Position numbers and translations under genes: made by a program
The notes under the pieces: model-generated
Seen by the model: the letters and a program-made list of their open reading frames with translations, nothing else
Told to the model about the DNA's origin: nothing
Database searches by the model: none
Assembly: GCA_027574665.1 (NCBI GenBank)
Contig: CM050673.1
Coordinates: 9,719,420-9,783,419, forward strand
Length of the DNA: 64,000 nucleotides
DNA from: Rhynochetos jubatus
Lineage: Eukaryota > Chordata > Aves > Eurypygiformes > Rhynochetidae
Direction: 5' to 3'
Shown here: positions 10,251-64,000 of the stretch, piece after piece
Numbering within the stretch: position 1 is the stretch's first letter
Layout of the letters: the number at the start of each line of letters is the position of its first letter

Positions 10251-10255
10251 GTGAA

Positions 10256-21707: not shown

Positions 21708-23532
21708 CTGGCCAGAAACAGCGACCTGCCATTCTTAGGGTTAGGGCTAGGGTTAGCGTCTGGAGAACAAGAAAGCCCCCAGGTCCAGGGATAGTTGGGA
21801 TTGCAAAGGCCTGCCAAGAGCAGCACGACACTGCACTGACATTGCTCCTACCACAGCTCTCATAGCCAGAACGCAGGTGGGGCGTGGCCGGAAAAGGCGA
21901 CCTGCCATTCTTAGGGTTAGGGCTAGGGTTAGCGTCTGGAGAACGAGAAAGCCCCCAGGTCCAGGGATAGTTGGGATTGCAAAGGCCTGCCAAGAGCAGC
22001 ACGACACTGCACTGACATTGCTCCTACCTCAGCTGTCATAGCAAGAATGCAGGGGGGGCGTGGCCGGAAACTGTGACCTGCCATTCTTAGGGTTAGGGCT
22101 AGGGTTAGCGTCTGGAGAACGAGAAAGCCCCCAGGTCCAGGGATAGTCGGGATTGCAAAGGCCTGCCAAGAGCAGCATGACACTGCACTGACATTGCTCC
22201 TACCGCATCTGCCATAACCAGAACGCAGGGGGGGCGTGGCCGGAAACGGTGACCTGCCATTCTTAGGGTTAGGGCTAGGGTTAGCGTCTGGAGAATGAGA
22301 AAGCCCCCAGGTCCAGGGATAGTTGGGATTGCAAAGGCCTGCCAAGAGCAGCATGACACCGCACTGACATTGCTCCTACCGCACCTCTCATAGCCAGAAC
22401 GCAGGTGGGGCGTGGCCGGAAAGCGCGACCAGCCATTCTTAGGGTTAGGGCTAGGGTTAGCGTCTGGAGAACGAGAAAGCCCCCAGGTCCAGGGATAGTT
22501 GGGATTGCAAAGGCCTGCCAAGAGCAGCACGACACTGCACAGACATTGCTCCTCCCGCAGCTCTCATAGCCAGAACGCAGGGGGGGCGTGTCCGGAAACC
22601 GCGACCTGCCATTCTTAGGGTTAGGGCTAGGGTTAGCGTCTGGAGAACGAGAAAGCGCCCAGGTCCAGGGAGAGTTGGGATTGCAAAGGCCTGCCAAGAG
22701 CAGCACGACACTGCACTGACATTGCTCCTACTGCATCTGCCATAGCCAGAAGGCAGGGGGGGCGTGGCCGGAAACCGCGACCTGCCATTCTTAGGGTTAG
22801 GGCTAGGGTTAGCGTTTGGAGAACGGGAAAGCCCCCAGGTCCAGGGATAGTTGGGATTGCAAAGGCCTGCCAAGAGCAGCACGACACTGCACTGACATTG
22901 CCCCTACGGCATCTGCCATAGCCAGAACGCAGGGGGGGCGTGGCCGGAAACTGCAACCTGCCATTCTTAGGGTTAGGGCTAGGGTTAGCGTCTGGAGAAC
23001 GAGAAAGCCCCCAGGTCCAGGGATAGTTGGGATTGCAAAGGCCTGCCAAGAGCAGCACGACACCGCACTGACAATGCTCCTCCCGCAGCTGTCATAGCCA
23101 GAACGCAGGTGGGGCGTGGCCGGAAACCGCGACCTGCCATTCTTAGGGTTAGGGCTAGGGTTAGCGTCTGGAGAACGAGAAAGCCCCCAGGTCCAGGGAG
23201 AGTTGGGATTGCAAAGGCCTGCCAAGAGCAGCACGACACTGCACTGACATTGCTCCTACCGCATCTGCCATAGCCAGAAGGCGGGGGGGCGTGGCCGGAA
23301 ACGGCGACCTGCCCTTCTTAGGGTTAGGGCTAGGGTTAGCGTCTGGAGAACGAGAAAGCCCCCAGGTCCAGGGATAGTTGGGATTGCAAAGGCCTGCCAA
23401 GAGCAGCACGACACTGCACTGACATTGCTCCTCCCGCAGCTGTCATGGCCAGAACGAAGGCGGGGCGTGGCTGGAAACCGCGACCTGCCATTCTTAGGGT
23501 TAGGGCTAGGGTTAGCGTCTGGAGAACGAGAA

Positions 23533-23564
23533 CGCAATCCTAACTATCCCTGGACCTGGGCACT
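23533..23564 (-). repeat. Micro-inversion in satellite unit (1 of 8)
   Basis: The 32 bases between GAGAA and AAGGCC are reverse-complemented relative to the standard unit. This copy has a few substitutions (CGCAATCCTAACTATCCC, GGGCACT), so it is the most diverged of the eight. Confidence 0.92.
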
Positions 23565-24236
23565 AAGGCCTGCCAAGAGCAGCACGACACTGCACTGACA
23601 TTGCTCCTACCGCATCTGCCATGGCCAGAACGCAGGGGGGGCGTGGCCAGAAACCGCGACCTGCCATTCTTAGGGTTAGGGCTAGGGTTAGCGTCTGGAG
23701 AACGAGAAAGCCCCCAGGTCCAGGGAGAGTTGGGATTGCAAAGGCCTGCCAAGAGCAGCACGACTCTGCACTGACAATGCTCCTACCGTATCTGCCATAG
23801 CCAGAACGCATGTGGGGTGTGGCCGGAAACCGCGACCTGCCGTTCTTAGGTTTAGGGCTAGGTTTAGCGTCTGGAGAACGAGAAAGCCCCCAGGTCCAGG
23901 GATAGTTGGGATTGCAAAGGCCTGCCAAGTGCAGCACGACACTGCACTGACATTGCCCCAACGGCATCTGCCATAGCCAGAACGTGGGGGGGGCGTGGCC
24001 GGGAACCGTGACCTGCCATTCTTAGGGTTAGGGCTAGGGTTAACGTTTGGAGAACGAGAAAGCCCCCAGGTCCAGGGATAGTTGGGATTGCAAAGGCCTG
24101 CCAAGATCAGCACGACACCGCACTGACATTGCTCCTCCCGCAGCTGTCATAGCCAGAACGCAGGGGGGGCGTGTCCGGAAACTGCGACCTGCCATTCTTA
24201 GGGTTAGGGCTAGGGTTCGCGTCTGGAGAACGAGAA

Positions 24237-24268
24237 TGAAATCCCAACTATCCCTGGACCTGGGGGCT
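24237..24268 (-). repeat. Micro-inversion in satellite unit (2 of 8)
   Basis: Same 32-base inversion, beginning TGAAATCCCAACTATCCC. The unit also carries GGGTTCGCGTCTGG, shared with copy 3, which shows common descent of copies 2 and 3. Confidence 0.95.
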
Positions 24269-24764
24269 AAGGCCTGCCAAGATCAGCACGACACTGCACT
24301 GACATTGCTCCTACCGCATCTGCCATAGTCAGAACGCAGGGGGAGCGTGGCCGGAGACCGCGACCTGCCATTCTTAGGGTTAGGGCTAGGGTTAGCATCT
24401 GGAGAACGAGAAAGCCCCCAGGTCCAGGGATAGTTGGGTTTGCAAAGGCCTGCCAAGAGCAGCACGACACTGCACTGACATTGCTCCTACCGCATCTGCC
24501 ATAGTCAGAACGCAGGGGGAGCGTGGCCGGAGACCGCGACCTGCCATTCTTAGGGTTAGGGCTAGGGTTAGCATCTGGAGAACGAGAAAGCCCCCAGGTC
24601 CAGGGATAGTTGGGTTTGCAAAGGCCTGCCAAGATCAGCACGACACCGCACTGACATTGCTCCTCCCGCAGCTGTCATAGCCAGAACGCAGGGGGGGCGT
24701 GTCCGGAAACTGCGACCTGCCATTCTTAGGGTTAGGGCTAGGGTTCGCGTCTGGAGAACGAGAA

Positions 24765-24796
24765 TGCAATCCCAAATATCCCTGGACCTGGGGGCT
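24765..24796 (-). repeat. Micro-inversion in satellite unit (3 of 8)
   Basis: Same inversion with one substitution (CCCAAATATCCC). It shares GGGTTCGCGTCTGG with copy 2, which lies 528 bases (three units) to the left. Confidence 0.95.
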
Positions 24797-25099
24797 AAGG
24801 CCTGCCAAGAGCAGCACGACACTACACTGACATTGCTCCTACCGCAGCTCTCATAGCCAGAACGCAGGGGGGGCGTGTCCGGAAACCGCGACCTGCCATT
24901 CTTAGGGTTAGGGCTAGGGTTAGCGTCTGGAGAACGAGAAAGCGCCCAGGTCCAGGGATAGTTGGGATTGCAAAGGCCTGCCAAGAGCAGCACGACACTG
25001 CACTGACATTGCCCCTACGGCATCTGCCATAGCCAGAACGCAGGGGGGGCGTGGCCGGAAACTGCAACCTGCCATTCTTAGGGTTAGGGCTAGGGTTAG

Positions 25100-27030
25100 C
25101 GTCTGGAGAACGAGAAAGCCCCCAGGTCCAGGGATAGTTGGGATTGCAAAGGCCTGCCAAGAGCAGCACGACACTGCACTGACATTGCTCCTCCTGCAGC
25201 TGTAATAGCCAGAACGCAGGGGGGGCGTGGCCAGAACCCGCGACCTGCCATTCTTAGGGTTAGGGCTAGTGTTAGCGTCTGGAGAACGAGAAAGCGCCCA
25301 GGTCCAGGGATAGTTGGGATTGCAAAGGCCTGCCAAGAGCAGCACGACACTGCACTGACATTGCTCCTATGGCAGCTGTCATAGCCAGAAGGCAGGGGGG
25401 GCGTGTCCGGAAACAGCGACCTGCCATTCTTAGGGTTAGGGCTAGGGTTAGCGTCTGGAGAACGAGAAAGCCCCCAGGTCCAGGGATAGTTGGGTTTGCA
25501 AAGGCCTGCCAAGAGCAGCACGACACTGCACTGACATTGCCCCTACGGCATCTGCCATAGCCAGAATGTGGGGGGGGCGTGGCCTGAAAAGGCGACCTGC
25601 CATTCTTAGGGTTAGGGCTAGGGTTAGCGTCTGGAGAACGAGAAAGCCCCCAGGTCCAGGGATAGTTGGGATTGCAAAGGCCTGCCAAGAGCAGCACGAC
25701 ACTGCACTGACATTGCTCCTACCGCATCTGCCATAGTCAGAACGCAGGGGGAGCGTGGCCGGAGACCGCGACCTGCCATTCTTAGGGTTAGGGCTAGGGT
25801 TAGCATCTGGAGAACGAGAAAGCCCCCAGGTCCAGGGATAGTTGGGTTTGCAAAGGCCTGCCAAGAGCAGCACGACACTGCACTGACATTGCTCCTACCG
25901 CATCTGCCATAGCCAGAACGCAGGGGGGGCGTGGCCTGAAAAGGCGACCTGCCATTCTTAGGGTTAGGGCTAGGGTTAGCGTCTGGAGAACGAGAAAGCC
26001 CCCAGGTCCAGGGATAGTTGGGATTGCAAAGGCCTGCCAAGAGCAGCACGACACTGCACTGACATTGCTCCTACCGCAGCTGTCATAGCCAGAACGCAGG
26101 GGGGCGTGGCCGGAAACCGTGACCTGCCATTCTTAGGGTTAGGGCTAGGGTTAGCGTCTGGAGAACGAGAAAGCCCCCAGGTCCAGGGATAGTTGGGATT
26201 GTAAAGGCCTGCCAAGAGCAGCACGACACTGCACTGACATTGCTCCTACGGCAGCTGTCATAGCCAGAAGGCAGGGGGGCCGTGGCCGGAAACCGCGACC
26301 TGCCATTTTTAGGGTTAGGGCTAGGGTTAGCGTCTGGAGAACGAGAAAGCCCCCAGGTCCAGGGAGAGTTGGGATTGCAAAGGCCTGCCAAGAGCAGCAC
26401 GACACTGCACTGACATTGCTCCTACCGCATCTGCCATAGCCAGAACGCAGGGGGGGCGTGGCCGGAAACCTCCACCTGCCATTCTTAGGGTTAGGGCTAG
26501 GGTTAGCGTCTGGAGAACGAGAAAGCCCCCAGGTCCAGGGAGAGTTGGGATTGCAAAGGCCTGCCAAGAGCAGCACGACACTGCACTGACATTGCTCCTA
26601 ACACATCTGCCATAGCCAGAACGCAGGGGGGGCGTGGCCGGAAACCGCGACCTGCCATTTTTAGGGTTAGGGCTAGGGTTAGCGTCTGGAGAACGAGAAA
26701 GCCCCCAGGTCCAGGGAGAGTTGGGATTGCAAAGGCCTGCCAAGAGCAGCACGACACTGCACTGACATTGCCCCAACGTCATCTGCCATAGACAGAACGT
26801 AGGGGGGGCGTGGCCGGGAACCGTGATCTGCCATTCTTAGGGTTAGGGCTAGGGTTAGCGTCTGGAGAACAAGAAAGCCCCCAGGTCCAGGGATAGTTGG
26901 GATTGCAAAGGCCTGCCAAGAGCAGCACGACACTGCACTGACATTGCTCCACCCGCATCTGCCATAGCCAGAACGCAGGGGGGGCGTGGCCGGAAACTGC
27001 AACCTGCCATTCTTAGGGTTAGGGCTAGGG
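25100..27030 (+). repeat. Multi-unit higher-order block, copy 1
   Basis: A run of variant units, including GCTCCTATGGCAGCTGTCAT near 25366 and AGTCAGAACGCAGGGGGAGC near 25735, recurs 3695 bases later (21 units) up to about 25.9 kb. From there the offset is 3871 bases (22 units), so one unit was gained or lost between copies. Confidence 0.8.
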
Positions 27031-28789
27031 TTAGCGTCTGGAGAACGAGAAAGCCCCCAGGTCCAGGGATAGTTGGGATTGCAAAGGCCTGCCAAGAGCA
27101 GCATGACACTGCACTGACAATGCTCCTCCCGCAGCTGTCATAGCCAGAACGCAGGGGGGGCGTGGCCGGAAACGGCGACCTGCCCTTCTTAGGGTTAGGG
27201 CTAGGGTTAGCGTCTGGAGAACGAGAAAGCCCCCAGGTCCAGGGATAGTTGGGATTGCAAAGGCCTGCCAAGAGCAGCACGACACTGCACTGACATTGCC
27301 CCAACGGCATCTGCCATAGTCAGAACGCGGGGGGGGCGTGGCCTGAAACCGCGACCTGCCATTCTTAGGGTTAGGGCTAGGGTTAGCGTCTGGAGAACGA
27401 GAAAGCCCCCAGGTCCAGGGAGAGTTGGGATTGTAAAGGCCTGCCAAGAGCAGCACGACACTGCACTGACATTGCTCCTACCGCAGCTCTCATAGCCAGA
27501 ACGCAGGGGGGGCGTGGCCAGAAACCGCGACGTGGCATTCTTAGGGTAAGGGCTAGGGTTAGCGTCTGGAGAACGAGAAAGCCCCCAGGTCCAGGGATAG
27601 TTGGGATTGCAAAGGCCTGCCAAGAGCAGCACGACACTGCACTGACATTGCCCCAACGGCATCTGCCATAGCCAGAACGTGGGGGGGGCGTGGCCGGGAA
27701 CCGTGACCTGCCATTCTTAGGGTTAGGGCTAGGGTTAGCGTTTGGAGAACGAGAAAGCCCCCAGGTCCAGGGATAGTTGGGATTGCAAAGGCCTGCCAAG
27801 AGCAGCACGACACTGCACTGACATTGCTCCTCCCGCATCTGCCATAGCCAGAACGCAGGGGGGGCGTGGCCGGAAACGGCGACCTGCCATTCTTAGGGTT
27901 AGGGCTAGGGTTAGCGTCTGGAGAACGAGAAAGCCCCCAGGTCCAGGGAGAGTTGGTATTGTAAAGGCCTGCCAAGAGCAGCACGACACTGCACTGACAT
28001 TGCTCCTACAGTATCTGCCATAGCCAGAACGCAGGTGGGGTGTGGCCGGAAACCGCAACCTGCCGTTCTTAGGTTTAGGGCTAGGGTTAGCGTCTGGAGA
28101 ACGAGAAAGCCCCCAGGTCCAGGGATAGTTGGGATTGCAAAGGCCTGCCAAGAGCAGCACGACACTGCACTGACATTGCCCCAACGGCGTCTGCCATAGC
28201 CAGAACGTGGGGGGGGCGTGGCCGGGAACCGTGACCTGCCATTCTTAGGGTTAGGGCTAGGGTTAGCGTTTGGAGAACGAGAAAGCCCCCAGGTCCAGGG
28301 ATAGTTGGGATTGCAAAGGCCTGCCAAGAGCAGCACGACACTGCACTGACATTGCTCCTACCGCATCTGCCATAGCCAGAACGCAGGGGGGGCGTGGCCG
28401 GAAACGGCGACCTGCCATTCTTAGGGTTAGGGCTAGGGTTAGCGTCTGGAGAACGAGAAAGCCCCCAGGTCCAGGGATAGTCGGGATTGCAAAGGCCTGC
28501 CAAGAGCAGCACGACACTGCACTGACATTGCTCCTACCGCAGCTGTCATAGCCAGAACGCAGGTGGTGCGTGGCCGGAAAGCGCGACCTGCCATTCTTAG
28601 GGTTAGGGCTAGGGTTAGCGTCTGGAGAACGAGAAAGCCCCCAGGTCCAGGGATAGTCGGGATTGCAAAGGCCTGCCAAGAGCAGTACGACACTGCACTG
28701 ACATTGCTCCTACCGCATCTGCCATAGCCAGAACGCAGGGGGGGCGTGGCCGGAAACCGCGACCTGCCATTCTTAGGGTTAGGGCTAGG

Positions 28790-30900
28790 GTTAGCGTCTG
28801 GAGAACGAGAAAGCCCCCAGGTCCAGGGAGAGTTGGGATTGCAAAGGCCTGCCAAGAGCAGCACGACACTGCACTGACATTGCTCCTCCTGCAGCTGTAA
28901 TAGCCAGAAGGCTGGGGGGGCGTGGCCAGAACCCGCGACCTGCCATTCTTAGGGTTAGGGCTAGGGTTAGCGTCTGGAGAACGAGAAAGCCCCCAGGTCC
29001 AGGGAGAGTTGGGATTGCAAAGGCCTGCCAAGAGCAGCACGACACTGCACTGACATTGCTCCTATGGCAGCTGTCATAGCCAGAAGGCAGGGGGGGCGTG
29101 TCCGGAAACCGCGACCTGCCATTCTTAGGGTTAGGGCTAGGGTTAGCGTCTGGAGAACGAGAAAGCCCCCAGGTCCAGGGATAGTTGGGTTTGCAAAGGC
29201 CTGCCAAGAGCAGCACGACACTGCACTGACATTGCTCCTACCGCATCTGCCATAGCCAGAATGTGGGGGGGGCGTGGCCTGAAAAGGCGACCTGCCATTC
29301 TTAGGGTTAGGGCTAGGGTTAGCGTCTGGAGAACGAGAAAGCCCCCAGGTCCAGGGATAGTTGGGATTGCAAAGGCCTGCCAAGAGCAGCACGACACTGC
29401 ACTGACATTGCTCCTACCGCATCTGCCATAGTCAGAACGCAGGGGGAGCGTGGCCGGAGACCGCGACCTGCCATTCTTAGGGTTAGGGCTAGGGTTAGCA
29501 TCTGGAGAACGAGAAAGCCCCCAGGTCCAGGGATAGTTGGGTTTGCAAAGGCCTGCCAAGAGCAGCACGACACTGCACTGACATTGCTCCTACCGCATCT
29601 GCCATAGCCAGAACGCAGGGGGGGCGTGGCCTGAAAAGGCGACCTGCCATTCTTAGGGTTAGGGCTAGGGTTAGCGTCTGGAGAACGAGAAAGCCCCCAG
29701 GTCCAGGGAGAGTTGGGATTGCAAAGGCCTGCCAAGAGCAGCACGACACTGCACTGACATTGCTCCTACCGCATCTGCCATAGCCAGAACGCAGGGGGGG
29801 CGTGGCCTGAAAAGGCGACCTGCCATTCTTAGGGTTAGGGCTAGGGTTAGCGTCTGGAGAACGAGAAAGCCCCCAGGTCCAGGGAGAGTTGGGATTGCAA
29901 AGGCCTGCCAAGAGCAGCACGACACTGCACTGACATTGCTCCTACCTCAGCTGTCATAGCCAGAACGCAGGGGGGCGTGGCCGGAAACCGTGACCTGCCA
30001 TTCTTAGGGTTAGGGCTAGGGTTAGCGTCTGGAGAACGAGAAAGCCCCCAGGTCCAGGGATAGTTGGGATTGTAAAGGCCTGCCAAGAGCAGCACGACAC
30101 TGCACTGACATTGCTCCTACCGCAGCTGTCATAGCCAGAAGGCAGGGGGGCCGTGGCCGGAAACCGCGACCTGCCATTTTTAGGGTTAGGGCTAGGGTTA
30201 GCGTCTGGAGAACGAGAAAGCCCCCAGGTCCAGGGAGAGTTGGGATTGCAAAGGCCTGCCAAGAGCAGCACGACACTGCACTGACATTGCTCCTACCGCA
30301 TCTGCCATAGCCAGAACGCAGGGGGGGCGTGGCCGGAAACCGCGACCTGCCATTCTTAGGGTTAGGGCTAGGGTTAGCATCTGGAGAACGAGAAAGCCCC
30401 CAGGTCCAGGGAGAGTTGGGATTGCAAAGGCCTGCCAAGAGCAGCACGACACTGCACTGACATTGCTCCTAACGCATCTGCCATAGCCAGAACGCAGGGG
30501 GGGCGTGGCCGGAAACCGCGACCTGCCATTTTTAGGGTTAGGGCTAGGGTTAGCGTCTGGAGAACGAGAAAGCCCCCAGGTCCAGGGAGAGTTGGGATTG
30601 CAAAGGCCTGCCAAGAGCAGCACGACACTGCACTGACATTGCCCCAACGGCATCTGCCATAGACAGAACGTGGGGGGGGCGTGGCCGGGAACCGTGATCT
30701 GCCATTCTTAGGGTTAGGGCTAGGGTTAGCGTCTGGAGAACAAGAAAGCCCCCAGGTCCAGGGATAGTTGGGATTGCAAAGGCCTGCCAAGAGCAGCACG
30801 ACACTGCACTGACATTGCTCCACCCGCATCTGCCATAGCCAGAACGCAGGGGGGGCGTGGCCGGAAACTGCAACCTGCCATTCTTAGGGTTAGGGCTAGG
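28790..30900 (+). repeat. Multi-unit higher-order block, copy 2
   Basis: Second copy of the block at 25100-27030. The extra unit lies around 29.6-29.9 kb. Its right part is itself duplicated at 30902-32030. Confidence 0.8.
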
Positions 30901-30901
30901 G

Positions 30902-32030
30902 TTAGCGTCTGGAGAACGAGAAAGCGCCCAGGTCCAGGGATAGTTGGGATTGCAAAGGCCTGCCAAGAGCAGCACGACACTGCACTGACATTGCTCCTAC
31001 CGCATCTGCCATAGCCAGAACGCAGGGGGGGCGTGGCCTGAAAAGGCGACCTGCCATTCTTAGGGTTAGGGCTAGGGTTAGCGTCTGGAGAACGAGAAAG
31101 CCCCCAGGTCCAGGGAGAGTTGGGATTGCAAAGGCCTGCCAAGAGCAGCACGACACTGCACTGACATTGCTCCTACCTCAGCTGTCATAGCCAGAACGCA
31201 GGGGGGCGTGGCCGGAAACCGCGACCTGCCATTCTTAGGGTTAGGGCTAGGGTTAGCGTCTGGAGAACGAGAAAGCCCCCAGGTCCAGGGATAGTTGGGA
31301 TTGTAAAGGCCTGCCAAGAGCAGCACGACACTGCACTGACATTGCTCCTACCGCATCTGCCATAGCCAGAACGCAGGGGGGGCGTGGCCGGAAACCGCGA
31401 CCTGCCATTCTTAGGGTTAGGGCTAGGGTTAGCATCTGGAGAACGAGAAAGCCCCCAGGTCCAGGGAGAGTTGGGATTGCAAAGGCCTGCCAAGAGCAGC
31501 ACGACACTGCACTGACATTGCTCCTAACGCATCTGCCATAGCCAGAACGCAGGGGGGGCGTGGCCGGAAACCGCGACCTGCCATTTTTAGGGTTAGGGCT
31601 AGGGTTAGCGTCTGGAGAACGAGAAAGCCCCCAGGTCCAGGGAGAGTTGGGATTGCAAAGGCCTGCCAAGAGCAGCACGACACTGCACTGACATTGCCCC
31701 AACGGCATCTGCCATAGACAGAACGTGGGGGGGGCGTGGCCGGGAACCGTGATCTGCCATTCTTAGGGTTAGGGCTAGGGTTAGCGTCTGGAGAACAAGA
31801 AAGCCCCCAGGTCCAGGGATAGTTGGGATTGCAAAGGCCTGCCAAGAGCAGCACGACACTGCACTGACATTGCTCCACCCGCATCTGCCATAGCCAGAAC
31901 GCAGGGGGGGCGTGGCCGGAAACTGCAACCTGCCATTCTTAGGGTTAGGGCTAGGGTTAGCGTCTGGAGAACGAGAAAGCGCCCAGGTCCAGGGATAGTT
32001 GGGATTGCAAAGGCCTGCCAAGAGCAGCAC
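30902..32030 (+). repeat. Six-unit higher-order repeat, second copy
   Basis: Units at 30198-30975 recur at 31253-32030 with an offset of 1055 bases, and units at 29671-30095 recur at 30902-31326 with an offset of 1231. The order of variants is kept, including CATAGACAGAACGTGGGG and the AACAAGAAAGCC unit. Confidence 0.8.
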
Positions 32031-33033
32031 GACACTGCACTGACAATGCTCCTCCCGCAGCTGTCATAGCCAGAACGCAGGTGGGGCGTGGCCTGAAACC
32101 GCGACCTGCCATTCTTAGGGTTAGGGCTAGGGTTAGCGTCTGGAGAACGAGAAAGCCCCCAGGTCCAGGGAGAGTTGGGATTGTAAAGGCCTGCCAAGAG
32201 CAGCACGACACTGCACTGACATTGCTCCTACCGCAGCTCTCATAGCCAGAACGCAGGGGGGGCGTGGCCAGAAACCGCGACGTGGCATTCTTAGGGTAAG
32301 GGCTAGGGTTAGCGTCTGGAGAACGAGAAAGCCCCCAGGTCCAGGGATAGTTGGGATTGCAAAGGCCTGCCAAGAGCAGCACGACTCTGCACTGACATTG
32401 CTCCTACGGCATCTGCCATAGCCAGAACGTGAGGGGGGCGTGGTAGGAAACGACGACCTGCCATTTTTAGGGTTAGGGCTAGGGTTAGCGTCTGGAGAAC
32501 GAGAAAGCCCCCAGGTCCAGGGAGAGTTGGGATTGTAAAGGCCTGCCAAGAGCAGCACGACACTGCACTGACATTGCTCCTACCGTATCTGCCATAGCCA
32601 GAACGCAGGTGGGGTGTGGCCGGAAACCGCGACCTGCCGTTCTTAGGTTTAGGGCTAGGGTTAGCGTCTGGAGAACGAGAAAGCCCCCAGGTCCAGGGAT
32701 AGTTGGGATTGCAAAGGCCTGCCAAGAGCAGCACGACACTGCACTGACATTGCCCCAACGGCATCTGCCATAGCCAGAACGTGGGGGGGGCGTGGCCGGG
32801 AACCGTGACCTGCCATTCTTAGGGTTAGGGCTAGGGTTAGCGTTTGGAGAACGAGAAAGCCCCCAGGTCCAGGGATAGTTGGGATTGCAAAGGCCTGCCA
32901 AGAGCAGCACGACACTGCACTGACATTGCTCCTCCCGCATCTGCCATAGCCAGAACGCAGGGGGGGCGTGGCCGGAAACGGCGACCTGCCATTCTTAGGG
33001 TTAGGGCTAGGGTTAGCGTCTGGAGAACGAGAA

Positions 33034-50480: not shown

Positions 50481-53421
50481 CACGACACTGCACTGACATT
50501 GCCCCTACGGCATCTGCCATAGCAAGAATGGGGGGGGGGCGTGGCCTGAAAAGGCGACCTGCCATTCTTAGGGTTAGGGCTAGGGTTAGCGTCTGGAGAA
50601 CGAGAAAGCCCCCAGGTCCAGGGATAGTTGGGATTGCAAAGGCCTGCCAAGAGCAGCACGACACTGCACTGACATTGCTCCTACCCCATCTGCCATAGCC
50701 AGAACGCAGGGGGAGCGTGGCCGGAGACCGCGACCTGCCATTCTTAGGGTTAGGGCTAGGGTTAGCATCTGGAGAACGAGAAAGCCCCCAGGTCCAGGGA
50801 GAGTTGGGATTGCAAAGGCCTGCCAAGAGCAGCACGACACTGCACTGACATTGCTCCTACGGCAGCTGTCATAGCCAGAACGCAGGGGGGGCGTGGCCTG
50901 AAAAGGCGACCTGCCATTCTTAGGGTTAGGGCTAGGGTTAGCGTCTGGAGAACGAGAAAGCCCCCAGGTCCAGGGATAGTTGGGATTGCAAAGGCCTGCC
51001 AAGAGCAGCACGACACTGCACTGACATTGCTCCTACGGCAGCTGTCATAGCCAGAAGGCAGGGGGGCCGTGGCCGGAAACCGCGACCTGCCATTTTTAGG
51101 GTTAGGGCTAGGGTTAGCGTCTGGAGAACGAGAAAGCCCCCAGGTCCAGGGAGAGTTGGGATTGCAAAGGCCTGCCAAGAGCAGCACGACACTGCACTGA
51201 CATTGCTCCTACCGCATCTGCCATAGCCAGAACGCAGGGGGGGCGTGGCCAGAACCCGCGACCTGCCATTCTTAGGGTTAGGGCTAGGGTTAGCGTCTGG
51301 AGAACGAGAAAGCCCCCAGGTCCAGGGAGAGTTGGGATTGCAAAGGCCTGCCAAGAGCAGCACGACACTGCACTGACATTGCTCCTACCGCATCTGCCAT
51401 AGCCAGAACGCAGGGGGGGCGTGGCCAGAAACCGCGACCTGCCATTCTTAGGGTTAGGGCTAGGGTTAGCGTCTGGAGAACGAGAAAGCCCCCAGGTCCA
51501 GGGAGAGTGGGGATTGCAAAGGCCTGCCAAGAGCAGCACGACACTGCACTGACATTGCTCCTACCGCATCTGCCATAGCCAGAACGCAGGGGGGGCGTGG
51601 CCGGAAACCGCGACCTGCCATTTTTAGAGTTAGGGCTAGGGTTAGCGTCTGGAGAACGAGAAAGCCCCCAGGTCCAGGGAGAGTTGGGATTGCAAAGGCC
51701 TGCCAAGAGCAGCACGACACTGCACTGACATTGCCCCAACGGCATCTGCCATAGACAGAACGTGGGGGGGGGGTGGCCGGGAACCTTGATCTGCCATTCT
51801 TAGGGTTAGGGCTAGGGTTAGCGTTTGGAGAACGAGAAAGCCCCCAGGTCCAGGGTTAGTTGGGATTGCAAAGGCCTGCCAAGAGCAGCACGACACTGCA
51901 CTGACATTGCCCCAACGGCATCTGCCATAGTCAGAACGCAGGGGGGGCGTGGCCGGAAACCGCGACCTGCCATTCTTAGGGTTAGGGCTAGGGTTAGCGT
52001 CTGGAGAACGAGAAAGCCCCCAGGTCCAGGGATAGTTGGGATTGCAAAGGCCTGCCAAGAGCAGCACGACACCGCACTGACATTGCTCCTACCTCAGCTG
52101 TCATAGCCAGAACGCAGGGGGGGCGTGGCCGGAAACGGCGACCTGCCATTCTTAGGGTTAGGGCTAGGGTTAGCGTCTGGAGAACGAGAAAGCGCCCAGG
52201 TCCAGGGAGAGTTGGGATTGCAAAGGCCTGCCAAGAGCAGCACGACACTGCACTGACATTGCTCCTCCCGCATCTGCCATAGGCAGAACGCAGGTAGGGT
52301 GTGGCCGGAAACGGCGACCTGCCGTTCTTAGGTTTAGGGCTAGGGTTAGCGTCTGGAGAACGAGAAAGCCCCCAGGTCCAGGGAGAGTTGGGATTGCAAA
52401 GGCCTGCCAAGAGCAGCACGACACTGCACTGACATTGCTCCTCCCGCAGCTCTCATAGCCAGAACGCAGGGGGGGCTTGGCCGGAAACCGCGACCTGCCA
52501 TTCTTAGGGTTAGGGCTAGGGTTAGCGTCTGGAGAACAAGAAAGCCCCCAGGTCCAGGGATAGTTGGGTTTGCAAAGGCCTGCCAAGAGCAGCACGACAC
52601 TGCACTGACATTGCCCCTACGGCATCTGCCATAGCCAGAACGTGGGGGGGGCGTGGCCTGAAAAGCGACCTGCCATTCTTAGGGTTAGGGCTAGGGTTAG
52701 CATCTGGAGAACGAGAAAGCCCCCAGGTCCAGGGATAGTTGGGATTGCAAAGGCCTGCCAAGAGCAGCACGACACTGCACTGACATTGCTCCTACCGCAT
52801 CTGCCATAGCCAGAACGCAGAGGGGGCATGGCCAGAAACCGTGACCTGCCATTCTTAGGGTTAGGGCTAGGGTTAGCGTCTGGAGAACGAGAAAGCCCCC
52901 AGGTCCAGGGAGAGTTGGCATTGCAAAGGCCTGCCAAGAGCAGCACGACACTGCACTGACATTGCTCCTACCGCAGCTGTCATGGCCAGAACGCAGGGGG
53001 GGCGTGGCCGGAAATGGCGACCTGCCATTCGTAGGGTTAGGGCTAGGGTTAGCGTCTGGAGAACGAGAAAGCCCCCAGGTCCAGGGAGAGTTGGGATTGC
53101 AAAGGCCTGCCAAGAGCAGCACGACACTGCACTGACATTGCTCCTACGGCATCTGCCATAGCCAGAACGCAGGGGGGGCGTGGCCGGAAACCGCGACCTG
53201 CCGTTCTTAGGTTTAGGGCTAGGGTTAGCGTCTGGAGAACGAGAAAGCCCCCAGGTCCAGGGAGAGTTGGGATTGCAAAGGCCTGCCAAGAGCAGCACGA
53301 CACAGCACTGACATTGCTCCTCCCGCAGCTGTCATAGGCAGAACGCAGGGGGGGCGTGGCCGGGAACCGCGACCTGCCATTCTTAGGGTTAGGGCTAGGG
53401 TTAGCGTCTGGAGAATGAGAA

Positions 53422-53453
53422 TGCAATCCCAACTATCCCTGGACCTGGGGACT
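53422..53453 (-). repeat. Micro-inversion in satellite unit (8 of 8)
   Basis: The same inversion with one change near its end (GGGGACT). Preceded by GGAGAATGAGAA as in copy 5. Confidence 0.96.
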
Positions 53454-54635
53454 AAGGCCTGCCAAGAGCAGCACGACACAGCACTGACATTGCTCCTACC
53501 GCATCTGTCATAGCCAGAACGCAGGGGGGGCGTGGCCGGAAACGGCGACCTGCCATTATAGGGTTAGGGCTAGGGTTAGCGTCTGGAGAACGAGAAAGCC
53601 CCCAGGTCCAGGGATAGTTGGGATTGCAAAGGCTTGCCAAGAGCAGCACGACACTGCACTGACATTGCTCCTCCCGCAGCTCTCATAGCAAGAACGCCGG
53701 GGGGGCATGGCTGGAAACCGCGACCTGCCATTCTTAGGGTTAGGGCTGGGGTTAGCGTCTGGAGAACGAGAAAGCCCCCAGGTCCAGGGATAGTTGGGTT
53801 TGCAAAGGCCTGCCAAGAGCAGCACGACACTGCACTGACATTGCTCCTACCGCATCTGCCATAGCCAGAACGTGGGGGGGGCGTGGACTGAAAAGCGACC
53901 TGCCATTCTTAGGGTTAGGGCTAGGGTTAGCATCTGGAGAACGAGAAAGCCCCCAGGTCCAGGGAGAGTTGGGATTGCAAAGGCCTGCCAAGAGCAGCAC
54001 GACACTGCACTGACATTGCTCCTACCGCAGCTGTCATAGCCAGAACGCAGGGGGGGCGTGGCCGGAAACCGCGACCTGCCATTCTTAGGGTTAGGGCTAG
54101 GGTTAGCGTCTGGAGAACGAGAAAGCCCCCAGGTCCAGGGATAGTTGGGATTGCAAAGGCTTGCCAAGAGCAGCACGACACTGCACTGACATTGCTCCTC
54201 CTGCAGCTGTAATAGCCAGAAGGCTGGGGGGGCGTGGCCGGAACCCGCGACCTGCCATTCTTAGGGTTAGGGCTAGGGTTAGCGTCTGGAGAACGAGAAA
54301 GCCCCCAGGTCCAGGGATAGTTGGGATTGCAAAGGCCTGCCAAGAGCAGCACGACACTGCACTGACATTGCTCCTAACGCATCTGCCATAGCCAGAACGC
54401 AGGTGGGGCGTGGCCAGAAACGGCGACCTGCCATTCTTAGGGTTAGGGCTAGGGTTAGCATCTGGAGAACGAGAAAGCCCCCAGGTCCAGGGATAGTTGG
54501 GATTGTAAAGGCCTGCCAAGAGCAGCACGACACTGCACTGACATTGCTCCTCCCGCAGCTCTCATAGCCAGAACGCAGGGGGGGCGTGGCCGGAAACCGT
54601 GACCTGCCATTCTTAGGGTTAGGGCTAGGGTTAGC

Positions 54636-54650
54636 GTCTGGATTAGCCCC
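54636..54650 (+). repeat. Small deletion variant of the 176-bp unit (4 of 4)
   Basis: Same deletion junction, in the single copy of that block within the second half of the 11-kb duplication. Confidence 0.9.
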
Positions 54651-56479
54651 CAGGTCCAGGGAGAGTTGGGATTGCAAAGGCCTGCCAAGAGCAGCACGAC
54701 ACTGCACTGACATTGCTCCTACATCAGCTCTCATAGCCAGAACGCAGGGGGGGCGTGGCCGGAAAGCGCGACCTGCCATTCTTAGGGTTAGGGCTAGGGT
54801 TAGCGTCTGGAGAACGAGAAAGCCCCCAGGTCCAGGGATAGTTGGGATTGCAAAGGCCTGCCAAGAGCAGCACGACACTGCACTGACATTACTCCTAACT
54901 CAGCTGTCATAGCCAGAATGCAGGGGGGGCGTGGCCGGAAACCGCGACCTGCCATTCTTAGGGTTAGGGCTAGGGTTAGCGTCTGGAGAACAAGAAAGCC
55001 CCCAGGTCCAGGGATAGTTGGGATTGCAAAGGCCTGCCAAGAGCAGCACGACACTGCACTGACATTGCTCCTAACGCATCTGCCATAGCCAGAACGCAGG
55101 GGGGGCGTGGCCGGAAACGGCGACCTGCCATTCTTAGGGTTAGGGCTAGGGTTAGCGTCTGGAGAACGAGAAAGCGCCCAGGTCCAGGGATAGTTGGGAT
55201 TGCAAAGGCCTGCCAAGAGCAGCATGACACTGCACTGACATTGGTCCTACTGCAGCTGTCATAGCCAGAAGGCAGGGGGGCCGTGGCTGGAAACCGCGAC
55301 CTGCCATTCTTAGGGTTAGGGCTAGGGTTAGCATCTGGAGAACGAGAAAGCCCCCAGGTCCAGGGAGAGTCGGGATTGCAAAGGCCTGCCAAGAGCAGCA
55401 CGACACTGCGCTGACATTGCTCCTCCCGCAGCTGTCATAGGCAGAACGCAGGGGGGGCGTGGCTTGAAACTGTGACCTGCCATTCTTAGGGTTAGGGCTA
55501 GGGTTAGCGTCTGGAGAATGAGAAAGCCCCCAGGTCCAGGGATAGTTGGGATTGCAAAGGCCTGCCAAGAGCAGCACGACACAGCACTGACATTGCTCCT
55601 ACCGCATCTGCCATAGCCAGAACGCAGGGGGGGCGTGGCCGGAAACGGCGACCTGCCATTCTTAGGGTTAGGGCTAGGGTTAGCGTCTGGAGAACGAGAA
55701 AGCGCCCAGGTCCAGGGATAGTTGGGATTGCAAAGGCTTGCCAAGAGCAGCACGACACTGCACTGACATTGCTCCTCCCGCAGCTCTCATAGCCAGAACG
55801 CAGGGGGGGCGTGGCCGGAAACCGCGACCTGCCATTCTTAGGGTTAGGGCTAGGGTTAGCGTCTGGAGAACAAGAAAGCCCCCAGGTCCAGGGATAGTTG
55901 GGATTGCAAAGGCCTGCCAAGAGCAGCACGACACTGCACTGACATTGCTCCTCACGCATCTGCCATAGCCAGAACGCAGGTGGGGCGTGGCCAGAAACGG
56001 CGACCTGCCATTCTTAGGGTTAGGGCTAGGGTTAGCATCTGGAGAACGAGAAAGCCCCCAGGTCCAGGGATAGTTGGGATTGTAAAGGCCTGCCAAGAGC
56101 AGCACGACACTGCACTGACATTGCTCCTCCCGCAGCTCTCATAGCCAGAACGCAGGGGGGGCGTGGCCGGAAACCGCGACCTGCCATTCTTAGGGTTAGG
56201 GCTAGGGTTAGCGTCTGGAGAACGAGAAAGCCCCCAGGTCCAGGGATAGTTGGGATTGCAAAGGCTTGCCAAGAGCAGCACGACACTGCACTGACATTGC
56301 TCCTCCCGCAGCTCTCATAGCCAGAACGCAGGGGGGGCGTGGCCGGAAACCGCGACCTGCCATTCTTAGGGTTAGGGCTAGGGTTAGCGTCTGGAGAACA
56401 AGAAAGCCCCCAGGTCCAGGGATAGTTGGGATTGCAAAGGCCTGCCAAGAGCAGCACGACACTGCACTGACATTGCTCC

Positions 56480-59400
56480 TACCGCAGCTGTCATGGCCAG
56501 AACGCAGGGGGGGCGTGGCCGGAAACCGCGACCTGCCATTCTTAGGGTTAGGGCTAGGGTTAGCGTCTGGAGAACGAGAAAACGCCCAGGTCCAGGGATA
56601 GTTGGGATTGCAAAGGCCTGCCAAGAGCAGCACGACACTGCACTGACATTGCTCCTACCGCAGCTGTCATAGCCAGAAAGCAGAGGGGGCGTGGCCGGAA
56701 ACCGCGACCTGCCATTCCTAGGGTTAGGGCTAGGGTTAGCGTCTGGAGAACGAGAAATCCCCCAGGTCCAGGGATAGTTGGGATTGCAAAGGCCTGCCAA
56801 GAGCAGCACGACACTGCACTGACATTGCTCCTACCGCAGCTGTCATGGCCAGAACGCAGGGGGGGCGTGGCCGGAAACTGCGACCTGCCATTCTTAGGGT
56901 TAGGGCTAGGGTTAGCGTCTGGAGAACGAGAAAGCGCCCAGGTCCAGGGATAGTTGGCATTGCAAAGGCCTGCCAAGAGTTGCACGACACTGCACTGACA
57001 TTGCTAATACCGCAGCTGTCATGGCCAGAACACAGGGGGGGCGTGGCCGGAAACAGTGACCTGCCATTCTTAGGGTTAGGGCTAGGGTTAGCGTCTGGAG
57101 AACGAGAAAGCGCCCAGGTCCAGGGATAGTTGGGATTGCAAAGGCCTGCCAAGAGCAGCACGACACTGCACTGACATTGCTCCTACCGCAGCTGTCATGG
57201 CCAGAACGCAGGGGGGGCGTGGCCGGAAACCGCAACCTGCCATTCTTAGGGTTAGGGCTAGGGTTAGCGTCTGGAGAACGAGAAAGCGCCCAGGTCCAGG
57301 GATAGTTGGGATTGCAAAGGCCTGCCAAGAGCAGCACGACACTGCACTGACATTGCTCCTACCGCAGCTGTCATGGCCAGAACGCAGGGGGGGCGTGGCC
57401 GGAAACCGCGACCTGCCATTCTTAGGGTTAGGGCTAGGGTTAGCGTCTGGAGAACGAGAAAGCGCCCAGGTCCAGGGATAGTTGGCATTGCAAAGGCCTG
57501 CCAAGAGCAGCACGACACTGCACTGACATTGCTCCTACCGCAGCTGTCATGGCCAGAACGCAGGGGGGGCGTGGCCGGAAACCGCGACCTGCCATTCTTA
57601 GGGTTAGGGCTAGGGTTAGTGTCTGGAGAACGAGAAAGCGCCCAGGTCCAGGGATAGTTGGGATTGCAAAGGCCTGCCAAGAGCAGCACGACACTGCACT
57701 GACATTGCTCCAACCGCAGCTGTCATGGCCAGAACGCAGGGGGGGCGTGGCCGGAAACCGCGACCTGCCATTCTTAGGGTTAGGGCTAGGGTTAGCGTCT
57801 GGAGAACGAGAAAGCGCCCAGGTCCAGGGTTAGTTGGGATTGCAAAGGCCTGCCAAGAGCAGCACGACACTGCAGTGACATTGCTCCTACCGCAGCTGTC
57901 ATGGCCAGAACGCAGGGGGGGCGTGGCCGGAAACCGCGACCTGCCATTCTTAGGGTTAGGGCTAGAGTTAGCGTATGGAGAACGAGAAAGCGCCCAGGTC
58001 CAGTGATAGTTGGGATTGCAAAGGCCTTCCTAGAGCTGCATGACACTGCACTGACATTGCTCCTACCGCAGCTGTCATGGCCAGAACGCAGGGGGGGCGT
58101 GGCCGGAAACCGCGACCTGCCATTCTTAGGGTTAGGGCTAGGGTTAGTGTCTGGAGAACGAGAAAGCGCCCAGGTCCAGGGATAGTTGGGATTGCAAAGG
58201 CCTGCCAAGAGCAGCACGACACTGCACTGACATTGCTCCAACCGCAGCTGTCATGGCCAGAACGCAGGGGGGGCGTGGCCGGAAACCGCGACCTGCCATT
58301 CTTAGGGTTAGGGCTAGGGTTAGCGTCTGGAGAACGAGAAAGCGCCCAGGTCCAGGGTTAGTTGGGATTGCAAAGGCCTGCCAAGAGCAGCACGACACTG
58401 CAGTGACATTGCTCCTACCGCAGCTGTCATGGCCAGAACGCAGGGGGGGCGTGGCCGGAAACCGCGACCTGCCATTCTTAGGGTTAGGGCTAGGGTTAGC
58501 GTCTGGAGAACGAGAAAGCGCCCAGGTCCAGGGTTAGTTGGGATTGCAAAGGCCTGCCAAGAGCAGCACGACACTGCAGTGACATTGCTCCTACCGCAGC
58601 TGTCATGGCCAGAACGCAGGGGGGGCGTGGCCGGAAACCGCGACCTGCCATTCTTAGGGTTAGGGCTAGAGTTAGCGTATGGAGAACGAGAAAGCGCCCA
58701 GGTCCAGTGATAGTTGGGATTGCAAAGGCCTTCCTAGAGCTGCATGACACTGCACTGACATTGCTCCTACCGCAGCTGTCATGGCCAGAACGCAGGGGGG
58801 GCGTGGCCGGAAACCGCGACCTGCCATTCTTAGGGTTAGGGCTAGGGTTAGCGTCTGGAGAACGAGAAAGCGCCCAGGTCCAGGGATAGTTGGGATTGCA
58901 AAGGCCTGCCAAGAGCAGCATGACACTGCACTGACATTGCTCCTACCGCAGCTGTCATGGCCAGAACGCAGGGGGGGCGTGGCCGGAAACCGCGACCTGC
59001 CATTCTTAGGGTTAGGGCTAGGGTTAGCGTCTGGAGAACGAGAAAGCCCCCAGGTCCAGGGATAGTTGGGATTGCAAAGGCCTGCCAAGAGCAGCACGAC
59101 ACTGCACTGACATTGCTCCTAACGCAGCTGTCATGGCCAGAACGCAGGTGGGGCGTGGCCGGAAACCGCGACCTGCCATTCTTAGGGTTAGGGCTAGGGT
59201 TAGCGTCTGGAGAACGAGAAAACGCCCAGGTCCAGGGATAGTTGGGATTGCAAAGGCCTGCCAAGAGCAGCACGACACTGCACTGACATTGCTCCTACCG
59301 CAGCTGTCATGGCCAGAACGCAGGGGGGGCGTGGCCGGAAACCGCGACCTGCCATTCTTAGGGTTAGGGCTAGGGTTAGCGTCTGGAGAACGAGAAAGCG

Positions 59401-62400
59401 CCCAGGTCCAGGGATAGTTGGGATTGCAAAGGCCTGCCAAGAGCAGCACGACACTGCACTGACATTGCTCCTACCGCAGCTGTCATGGCCAGAACGCAGG
59501 GGGGGCGTGGCCGGAAACCGCGACCTGCCATTCTTAGGGTTAGGGCTAGGGTTAGCGTCTGGAGAACGAGAAAACGCCCAGGTCCAGGGATAGTTGGGAT
59601 TGCAAAGGCCTGCCAAGAGCAGCACGACACTGCACTGACATTGCTCCTACCGCAGCTGTCATGGCCAGAACGCAGGGGGGGCGTGGCCGGAAACCGCGAC
59701 CTGCCATTCTTAGGGTTAGGGCTAGGGTTAGCGTCTGGAGAACGAGAAAGCGCCCAGGTCCAGGGATAGTCGGCATTGCAAAGGCCTGCCAAGAGTTGCA
59801 CGACACTGCACTGACATTGCTCCTACCACAGCTGTCATGGCCAGAACACAGGGGGGGCGTGGCCGGAAACAGTGACCTGCCATTCTTAGGGTTAGGGCTA
59901 GGGTTAGCGTCTGGAGAACGAGAAAACGCCCAGGTCCAGGGATAGTTGGGATTGCAAAGGCCTGCCAAGAGCAGCACGACACTGCACTGACATTGCTCCT
60001 ACCGCAGCTGTCATGGCCAGAACGCAGGGGGGGCGTGGCCGGAAACCGCGACCTGCCATTCTTAGGGTTAGGGCTAGGGTTAGCGTCTGGAGAACGAGAA
60101 AGCGCACAGGTCCAGGGATAGTTGGGATTGCAAAGGCCTGCCAAGAGCAGCACGACACTGCACTGACATTGCTCCTACTGCAGCTGTCATGGCCAGAACG
60201 CAGGGGGGGCGTGGCCGGAAACTGCAACCTGCCATTCTTAGGGTTAGGGCTAGGGTTAGCGTCTGGAGAACGAGAAAGCGCCCAGGTCCAGGGAGAGTTG
60301 GGATTGCAAAGGCCTGCCAAGAGCTGCACGACACTGCACTGACATTGCTCCTACCGCAGCTGTCATGGCCAGAAGGCAGGGGGGGCGTGGCCTGAAACCG
60401 CGACCTGCCATTCTTAGGGTTAGGGCTAGGGTTAGCGTCTGGAGAACGAGAAAGCGCCCAGGTCCAGGGTTAGTTGGGATTGCAAAGGCCTGCCAAGAGC
60501 TGCACGACACTGCACTGACATTGCTCCTACCGCAGCTGTCATGGCCAGAACGCAGGGGGGGCGTGGCCGGAAACCGCAACCTGCCATTCTTAGGGTTAGG
60601 GCTAGGGTTAGCGTCTGGAGAACGAGAAAGCGCCAAGGTCCAGGGATAGTTGGGATTGCAAAGGCCTGCCAAGAGCAGCACGACACTGCACTGACATTGC
60701 TCCTACCGCAGCTGTCATGGCCAGAACGCAGGGGGGGCGTGGCCGGAAACCGCGACCTGCCATTCTTAGGGTTAGGGCTAGGGTTAGCGTCTGGAGAACG
60801 AGAAAGCGCCCAGGTCCAGTGATAGTTGGCATTGCAAAGGCCTTCCTAGAGCTGCACGACACTGCACTGACATTGCTCCTACCGCAGCTGTCATGGCCAG
60901 AATGCAGGGGGGGCGTGACCGGAAACCGCGACCTGCCATTGTTAGGGTTACGGCTAGGGTTCGCGTCTGGAGAACGAGAAAACGCCCAGGTCCAGGGATA
61001 GTTGGGATTGCAAAGGCCTGCCAAGAGCAGCACGACACTGCATTGACATTGCTCCTACCGCAGCTGTCATGGCAAGAACGCAGGGGGGGCGTGGCCGGAA
61101 ACCGCGACCTGCCATTCTTAGGGTTAGGGCTAGGGTTAGCGTCTGGAGAACGAGAAAGCGCCCAGGTCCAGGGATAGTTGGGATTGCAAAGGCCTTCCTA
61201 GAGCTGCATGACACTGCACTGACATTGCTCCTACCGCAGCTGTCATGGCCAGAACGCAGGGGGGGCGTGACCGGAAACCGCGACCTGCCATTCTTAGGGT
61301 TAGGGCTAGGGTTAGCGTCTGGAGAACGAGAAAGCGCCCAGGTCCAGGGATAGTTGGGATTGCAAAGGCCTGCCAAGAGCAGCATGACACTGCACTGACA
61401 TTGCTCCTACCGCAGCTGTCATGGCCAGAACGCAGGGGGGGCGTGGCCGGAAACCGCGACCTGCCATTCTTAGGGTTAGGGCTAGGGTTAGCGTCTGGAG
61501 AACGAGAAAGCGCCCAGGTCCAGGGATAGTTGGGATTGCAAAGGCCTGCCAAGAGCAGCACGACACTGCACTGACATTGCTCCTAACGCAGCTGTCATGG
61601 CCAGAACGCAGGTGGGGCGTGGCCGGAAACCGCGACCTGCCATTCTTAGGGTTAGGGCTAGGGTTAGCGTCTGGAGAACGAGAAAACGCCCAGGTCCAGG
61701 GATAGTTGGGATTGCAAAGGCCTGCCAAGAGCAGCACGACACTGCACTGACATTGCTCCTAACGCAGCTGTCATGGCCAGAACGCAGGGGGGGCGTGGCC
61801 GGAAACCGCGACCTGCCATTCTTAGGGTTAGGGCTAGGGTTAGCGTCTGGAGAACGAGAAAGCGCCCAGGTCCAGGGATAGTTGGGATTGCAAAGGCCTG
61901 CCAAGAGCAGCACGACACTGCACTGACATTGCTCCTACCGCAGCTGTCATGGCCAGAACGCAGGGGGGGCGTGGCCGGAAACCGCGACCTGCCATTCTTA
62001 GGGTTAGGGCTAGGGTTAGCGTCTGGAGAACGAGAAAACGCCCAGGTCCAGGGATAGTTGGGATTGCAAAGGCCTGCCAAGAGCAGCACGACACTGCACT
62101 GACATTGCTCCTACCGCAGCTGTCATGGCCAGAACGCAGGGGGGGCGTGGCCGGAAACCGCGACCTGCCATTCTTAGGGTTAGGGCTAGGGTTAGCGTCT
62201 GGAGAACGAGAAAGCGCCCAGGTCCAGGGATAGTTGGGATTGCAAAGGCCTGCCAAGAGTTGCACGACACTGCACTGACATTGCTCCTACCACAGCTGTC
62301 ATGGCCAGAACACAGGGGGGGCGTGGCCGGAAACAGTTACCTGCCATTCTTAGGGTTAGGGCTAGGGTTAGCGTCTGGAGAACGAGAAAACGCCCAGGTC

Positions 62401-64000
62401 CAGGGATAGTTGGCATTGCAAAGGCCTGCCAAGAGCAGCACGACACTGCACTGACATTGCTCCTACCGCAGCTGTCATGGCCAGAAGGCAGGGGGGGCGT
62501 GGCCGGAAACCGCGACCTGCCATTCTTAGGGTTAGGGCTAGGGTTAGCGTCTGGAGAACGAGAAAGCGCCCAGGTCCAGGGATAGTTGGGATTGCAAAGG
62601 CCTGCCAAGAGCAGCACGACACTGCACTGACATTGCTCCTACTGCAGCTGTCATGGCCAGAAGGCAGGGGGGGCGTGGCCTGAAACCGCGACCTGCCATT
62701 CTTAGGGTTAGGGCTAGGGTTAGCGTCTGGAGAACGAGAAAGCGCCCAGGTCCAGGGTTAGTTGGCATTGCAAAGGCCTGCCAAGAGCTGCACGACACTG
62801 CACTGACATTGCTCCTACCGCAGCTGTCATGGCCAGAACGCAGGGGGGGCGTGGCCGGAAACCGCAACCTGCCATTCTTAGGGTTAGGGCTAGGGTTAGC
62901 GTCTGGAGAACGAGAAAGCGCCAAGGTCCAGGGATAGTTGGGATTGCAAAGGCCTGCCAAGAGCAGCACGACACTGCACTGACATTGCTCCTACCGCAGC
63001 TGTCATGGCCAGAACGCGGGGGGGCGTGGCCGGAAACCGCGACCTGCCATTCTTAGGGTTAGGGCTAGAGTTAGCGTCTGGAGAACGAGAAAGCGCCCAG
63101 GTCCAGTGATAGTTGGCATTGCAAAGGCCTTCCTAGAGCTGCACGACACTGCACTGACATTGCTCCTACCGCAGCTGTCATGGCCAGAACGCAGGGGGGG
63201 CGTGACCGGAAACCGCGACCTGCCATTGTTAGGGTTACGGCTAGGGTTCGCGTCTGGAGAACGAGAAAACGCCCAGGTCCAGGGATAGTTGGGATTGCAA
63301 AGGCCTGCCAAGAGCAGCACGACACTGCACTGACATTGCTCCTACCGCAGCTGTCATGGCCAGAACGCAGGGGGGGCGTGGCCGGAAACTGCGACCTGCC
63401 ATTCTTAGGGTTAGGGCTAGGGTTAGCGTCTGGAGAACGAGAAAGCGCCCAGGTCCAGTGATAGTTGGGATTGCAAAGGCCTGCCAAGAGCAGCACGACA
63501 CTGCACTGACATTGCTCCTACCGCAGCTGTCATGGCCAGAACGCAGGGGGGGCGTGGCCGGAAACCGCGACCTGCCATTCTTAGGGTTAGGGCTAGGGTT
63601 AGCGTATGGAGAACGAGAAAGCGCCCAGGTCCAGGGATAGTTGGGATTGCAAAGGCCTGCCAAGAGCAGCACGACACTGCACTGACATTGCTCCTACCGC
63701 AGCTGTCATGGCCAGAACGCAGGGGGGGCGTGGCCAGAAATCGCAACCTGCCATTCTTAGGGTTAGGGCTAGGGTTAGCGTCTGGAGAACGAGAAAGCGC
63801 ACAGGTCCAGGGATAGTTGGGATTGAAAAGGCCTGCCAAGAGCAGCACGACACTGCACTGACATTGCTCCTGCCGCAGCTGTCATGGCCAGAACTCAGGG
63901 GGGGCGTGGCCGGAAACCGCGACCTGCCATTCTTAGGGTTAGGGCTAGGGTTAGCGTCTGGAGAACGAGAAAGCGCACAGGTCCAGGGATAGTTGGGATT
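56480..64000 (+). repeat. Block of subfamily B units, second occurrence, to window end
   Basis: The CATGGCC and GCGCCCAGG variants dominate to the right edge. Neighbouring units are more alike here than in the A region, with many near-identical copies, suggesting the most recently homogenised part of the array in view. Confidence 0.85.
58848..63672 (+). repeat. 13- to 14-unit higher-order repeat in subfamily B
   Basis: Units at 58848-60250 recur at 61312-62617 with an offset of 2464 bases, and 60256-61385 recur at 62544-63672 with an offset of 2288. The most distinctive shared unit combines GGCCTTCCTAGAGCTGCA with a following GTTAGGGTTACGGCTAGGG. Confidence 0.8.

Follow-up and report, generated by a model that had tools for sequence, protein, structure and literature searches.

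The array that fills the end of our window, by which we mean the whole 64,000-nucleotide stretch of Rhynochetos jubatus DNA analysed here (contig C28, 9719420-9783419), is probably the edge of a large satellite of centromere or pericentromere type. This edge is made of one subfamily, A, and a short telomeric tract from a founder monomer appears to have been spread through the satellite by amplification and homogenisation.

The satellite array in the window

The array (21709-64000, plus strand) is a tandem repeat with a period of 176 bp and 240.5 copies. A wrap-around alignment that was not anchored by the telomeric motif divided it into 241 pieces, including 240 full units, and all conservation figures for the window come from this motif-independent alignment; a motif-anchored alignment is biased and was excluded from the conservation analysis. 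The telomere-like segment, TTAGGGTTAGGGCTAGGGTTAG, occupies alignment columns 27-48, which are 21735-21756 on the plus strand in the first unit. It contains two matches to YTAGGGTTR, and in the first unit these half-sites are TTAGGGTTA at 21735-21743 and CTAGGGTTA at 21747-21755, both on the plus strand.

The sequence-only reading had placed such a segment in each of about 240 units, with two half-sites per unit, 12 bases apart, and roughly 480 in the array. The number of units and the 12-bp distance between half-site starts agree with this, but the tract is less uniform than proposed. Exact copies of TTAGGGTTAGGGCTAGGG number 206 and those of the longer TTAGGGTTAGGGCTAGGGTTAG 203, all on the plus strand, and two half-sites are present in 207 of the 240 full units, with one in 32 units and none in a single unit. 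The array thus has 448 half-sites (220 of TTAGGGTTA and 228 of CTAGGGTTA) rather than 480, still a strong excess over the 0.44 expected from base composition. YTAGGGTTR occurs neither on the opposite strand of the array nor in the rest of the window.

We found no short-period higher-order repeat with a strong lag in the window (the best lag, 22, gives 0.941, and the remaining lags from 1 to 30 give 0.933-0.940). The same is true of 8 kb of the second subfamily, B, from each of contigs C13 and C28, the latter having nine near-identical pairs at lag 5. Separately, about 30 bp are inverted within one unit (23531-23562), and a matching inverted stretch is seen at six places in the window, 23535, 33036, 41657, 44463, 48320 and 53424. 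The micro-inversion therefore seems to have spread.

Genome-wide extent and subfamily organization

The assembly comprises 1.331 Gb in 148 contigs; this size, the numerous contigs only a few Mb long and a telomere repeat of vertebrate type are consistent with a bird. We read the satellite family at sampled places on C11, C13 and C28. On C28 the satellite was present at every sampled place from the start of the window array, at 9741128, to about 10292375, a length of approximately 551 kb. Two subfamilies can be distinguished. The array in the window belongs to A, the flank type, with two half-sites per unit (477 of 517 A units on C28). The B unit is 177 bp long and has CTAGGGTTAGGGTTAGGGTTAGGGTCC, a tract in which TAGGG is perfectly repeated four times; three half-sites per unit are usual (139 of 180 units). 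Exact A cores number 20,552 genome-wide (10,518 + 10,034) and exact B cores 37,796 (18,681 + 19,115), at least 58,348 together, while reversed-pattern controls for both cores gave no match anywhere in the genome. The family totals about 10.3 Mb, which is a lower bound. Compared with the roughly 480 half-sites first proposed for one array, the exact cores alone hold at least 154,492 genome-wide, equivalent to about 0.93 Mb of telomeric hexamers; around 113,000 of these are in exact copies of the B core.

The arrangement of the subfamilies is alike on two contigs. On C28, A extends to at least 9.8548 Mb, the change to B falls between 9.8548 and 9.8634 Mb, B is found from 9.8634 to 10.215 Mb, and A is found again at 10.25-10.292 Mb. 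Telomere repeats cap C13 (26.2 Mb) on either side (400 bases were read per end), and the block on this contig is internal and on the minus strand, running from about 8.33 Mb to beyond 9.86 Mb. At its left edge A starts at 8.329 Mb and continues for about 7.8 kb, followed by a piece of the flank module and then by B, which was found at all seven places read within the block (8.4, 8.6, 8.9, 9.0, 9.25, 9.6 and 9.82 Mb). Exact A cores resume at 9.830 Mb, and A is present at 9.86 Mb. Outside the block, no satellite match was found on C13 at 8.2, 8.3, 9.9, 10.1, 10.3, 10.6, 11.0 or 12.0 Mb. The A-B-A order common to C13 and C28 is not clean, because the B part of C13 contains, among the matches listed, six solitary exact A cores (8.479, 8.710, 9.090, 9.174, 9.177 and 9.378 Mb).

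The B units are also the more homogeneous, with mean pairwise differences of 0.022 on C28 and 0.044 on C13 against 0.066, 0.070 and 0.087 for A. Apart from the six isolated A cores in the B part of C13, both contigs therefore have a homogeneous core between more divergent monomers. Human alpha satellite likewise has a homogeneous core flanked by more diverged units. Within the C13 block, exact B cores between 8344613 and 8365003 recur every 14,764 bp at all 14 positions checked, which indicates a recent large-scale duplication.

This core between diverged flanks, together with the position of the C28 array near its contig end, leads us to the centromere or pericentromere reading. As for a single block per chromosome, the block is internal on C13 and near the end on C28 at the sampled places. 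A 23-mer spanning the flank-array boundary (21691-21713) has 12 matches at up to two mismatches, one on each of 12 contigs. On the other side of the balance, the CENP-B box core, TTCGNNNNANNCGGG, was not found; this box is a defining feature of just some mammalian centromeric satellites. No exact A or B core falls on C1 to C10 among the matches listed, provided that these follow contig order, as seems to be the case, and none occurs in the outermost 1 kb at either end of C1 or C2, or at the start of C3. The largest chromosomes may use a different centromere sequence.

The history of the satellite was probably as follows. A founder monomer would have acquired a short telomeric tract, and tandem amplification with homogenisation, through unequal exchange and segmental duplication, would then have multiplied the tract to tens of thousands of copies. 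The B core, which is homogeneous, would have kept four perfect repeats, with hexamers gained and lost by slippage, while the more diverged A flanks would retain a degenerate copy of the tract with two half-sites.

Sequences flanking the array and contig ends

To the left of the array lies a module bounded by inverted repeats. The arm on the array side (20463-21486, minus strand) is a 91% inverted repeat of 5036-6014 (plus strand), a copy of which is also found just past the right-hand edge of the C28 array. Between these arms of about 1 kb are 14 kb of sequence, part of it a 22-bp array, and one of the arms adjoins the satellite. The 22-bp array (6535-8571) consists of 92.6 copies of a C-rich unit with 100% identity (TRF repeat call); relatives of it are found near the ends of C20, C28, C29 and C31, and C34 has a weaker one at its beginning. 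Left of the module is a 92-bp satellite (1-5036, plus strand) that was present at all seven places sampled on C28 between 9.22 and 9.72 Mb, on the same strand at the six between 9.52 and 9.72 Mb and on the opposite strand at 9.22 Mb. Another module, at 10260-13000, recurs with about 95% similarity at the C27 and C28 ends, and a further repeat, spotted by eye, lies at the ends of C10, C20, C27, C29 and C31.

Another component (8571-10259, plus strand) belongs to a family found immediately after the telomere repeats of C60, and also at or near the ends of C27, C28, C29, C30 and C35. It was because of this family that the satellite looked subtelomeric at first, and the C28 array does end about 13 kb short of the contig end, adjoining telomere-adjacent family sequence. 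A subtelomeric satellite, or an interstitial telomere left by chromosome fusion, is nevertheless very unlikely. The C13 block is internal, 8.3 Mb from one of that contig's telomeres, and the C11 copy is at 13.7-13.8 of 34.9 Mb, so that the family is not confined to chromosome ends and we reject the subtelomeric satellite. Nor do consecutive telomeric hexamers form the array itself, as they do in an ITS; there is one short tract per 176/177-bp unit and not a run of hexamers.

Past the C28 array there are other repeats and relatives of the window's left-flank module, and the contig stops at 10305424, about 13 kb beyond the array, without a telomere. At its end C28 repeats, in inverted orientation, the sequence just before it, and about two satellite units, also inverted, lie at the turning point; this may be a real palindrome or an assembly fold-back. 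Such a structure is what a fold-back error would resemble, and it might be taken to mean that the array as a whole has been collapsed, expanded or misplaced in assembly. That the units are divergent, and that two contigs agree in the order of the two subfamilies, makes an artefact of this kind highly improbable.

Under the centromere reading, the distance of about 13 kb from array to contig end fits an acrocentric chromosome like those of chicken. The acrocentric short arm in chicken is described as having, apart from telomere and CNM repeats, just one sequence of 5 kb (PMC9974502).

Conservation of the telomeric tract

In the sequence-only reading the telomeric segment stays nearly invariant while other parts of the unit drift. 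Compared column by column, the telomeric columns of the window are indeed less variable than the remainder (mean variation 0.8% in the 22 motif columns against 4.3% elsewhere, second of 176 column sets of this width), and among the 517 A units of C28 they rank first (0.6% against 3.5%). The segment is, though, not alone in this, since the 22 columns from 115 vary at only 1.1%, and across the family it does vary. Conservation also does not follow the half-sites. The most intact 9-mers in the window start at columns 33 and 34 (230 of 240 units) and cross the spacer between the half-sites, which is as conserved as the half-sites themselves; TTAGGGTTA is intact in 219 units (rank 39 of 176) and CTAGGGTTA in 225 (rank 12 of 176).

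Whether selection maintains the tract may be judged from the frequencies of its variants. Singletons per column are equally common inside and outside the motif of the 517 A units (0.50 and 0.51), and the motif is therefore not a mutation cold spot. Shared variants differ. No motif variant reaches 2% in the 517 units (two do so at a 1% threshold), and the longest stretch of columns in which no variant is shared is exactly the motif, columns 27-48. When substitutions alone are counted, the motif of the C28 A units has 11 rare ones and none shared by 2% or more of the units, compared with 100 and 62 outside it (p = 0.008; p = 0.019 without CpG changes). The 180 B units have 10 and none against 62 and 28 (p = 0.058; p = 0.11 without CpG changes), and the combined p is 0.004, or 0.015 without CpG changes. 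These p-values are optimistic, because satellite copies are related.

This contrast suggests one way to account for the tract, namely that it is under selection through TRF1/TRF2 or another telomere-repeat protein and works as a sink, an anchor or an aid to heterochromatin or CENP-A. The number of half-sites in exact cores agrees with such a role. So does fission yeast, where internal telomere repeats are reported to favour the loading of CENP-A by way of Ccq1 and H3K9 methylation (PMC3729655). The signal is lost, however, when variants are counted by location. With those found in exactly two blocks excluded, the ratio of variants in one block to variants in three or more is 9:7 in the motif against 79:116 in the rest (p = 0.29). 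Significance further depends on threshold and subset, with p from 0.04 to 0.21 in the full A set at a 5% threshold, according to the handling of CpG changes and gaps, about 0.6 at 10%, and from 0.06 to 1 in a 251-unit subset (stretches L001-L005), depending on the threshold. In the window's 240 units alone, two motif variants do reach 2%. Divergence between A and B is ordinary in the motif (2 changes against 3.3 elsewhere, rank 38 of 176), and columns 87-112 are identical in the two subfamilies. We regard a selected role of this kind as a tentative possibility, and selective constraint on the motif as possible but weak.

The tract may instead simply belong to the monomer, with slippage and exchange keeping it fairly pure and without protein consequence in the cell, an account that seems to us about evenly balanced between right and wrong. 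The ordinary A-B divergence and the non-significant location control agree with it, as do changes that break or resize the motif. The number of TAGGG repeats in the 180 B units is four in 139, three in 25, five in 14 and two in 2. On C11 (34.9 Mb) the places read, at about 13.746-13.840 Mb, have a chromosome-specific B-like variant in which a TTACGG substitution that breaks a half-site has spread to 4 of 16 units in one stretch and to 3 of 16 in another (7 of 32). The repeat-number variation in B and the spread of TTACGG on C11 lead us to reject strict invariance of the motif in the family. Against a purely passive tract stands the lack of any motif substitution at 2% or more in A or B on C13 and C28, a point that is weak in the smaller sets. 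Its intact Myb sites, moreover, would by their sequence alone be expected to bind TRF in vitro.

Telomere-protein binding and a possible centromere function

YTAGGGTTR is present in most satellite units, A and B, and is identical to the Myb site given for human TRF2 (PMC4357705). TRF proteins are also reported to bind outside chromosome ends: one review has them on a subset of human ITSs, and TRF1 on large ITS blocks in hamster cells, where it guards against breakage (PMC6410037). Because the sites match the TRF2 consensus, and because TRF1/TRF2 binding to ITSs and satellites has been published, it is plausible that the array could serve as an internal platform for telomere proteins. Judging from the match of the sites, TRF1/TRF2 would probably show some binding to the tracts in vitro and might do so in cells as well. 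If accessible, the half-sites would be sufficient to compete with chromosome ends.

We can also imagine a more specific role in the centromere, in which telomere-repeat proteins bound to the B core, with its half-sites and with four G-tracts per unit that could form a quadruplex, would help to deposit heterochromatin or CENP-A. In a bird lineage, telomeric sequence of the chicken-kinetochore type would then have been fused into the centromeric monomer, and the A flanks, with their degraded tract, would be a retired centromere. We find this proposal, taken as a whole, unlikely.

Comparison with known repeats

A satellite of the chaffinch (Fringilla coelebs), reportedly described by Liangouzov et al. 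in 2002, is said to have monomers with short TTAGGG clusters. The tandem monomers described here likewise have a short TTAGGG cluster. The chaffinch GS repeat and the present satellite are both bird satellites with such a cluster in the monomer, and they may belong to the same family; they are likened by description only. Chicken Cen1 is chromosome-specific, unlike the present satellite, which is one family on many contigs. The chaffinch GS repeat and chicken Cen1 are both named in one paper as repeats with TTAGGG (PMC3648425). Cen1 and the present satellite are thus both tandem repeats said to include TTAGGG, again a likeness of description only.

Chicken centromere cores offer a second likeness, with telomeric sequence at kinetochore sites and acrocentric chromosomes with tiny short arms. 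CENP-A cores in chicken are stated to encompass (TTAGGG)n often (PMC9974502). The organization is different, in that chicken has (TTAGGG)n embedded in 41-bp CNM arrays whereas here the tract lies within every 176/177-bp monomer type. The het-ITS of the Chinese hamster resembles the present satellite in having the telomeric motif in satellite-like blocks, TRF1-bound in hamster cells (PMC6410037), but consists of long blocks, compared with mostly three to five hexamers per unit here.

More widely, bird ITRs are described as mostly centromeric or pericentromeric, with the motif sometimes within a larger satellite, and centromeric ITRs as relatively common in birds, in one review (PMC7348932). Telomere FISH in birds is usually terminal according to another (PMC9693754), and signals in nightingales, canary and zebra finch are reported as terminal only; both points speak against a general rule of centromeric telomere motifs in birds. 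A literature search of incomplete coverage gave no match for the motif 18-mer alongside 'satellite' and 'telomer'.

The satellite is real and large, is of a kind already reported in birds and is a good test case for centromeric telomere motifs. Its most interesting aspect is the arrangement of a pure core and degraded flanks on the same chromosome. As pure and degraded tracts occur in one array, the link between telomere motif and centromere is testable there. In such a genome, telomere probes or counts of TTAGGG in reads partly measure the satellite.
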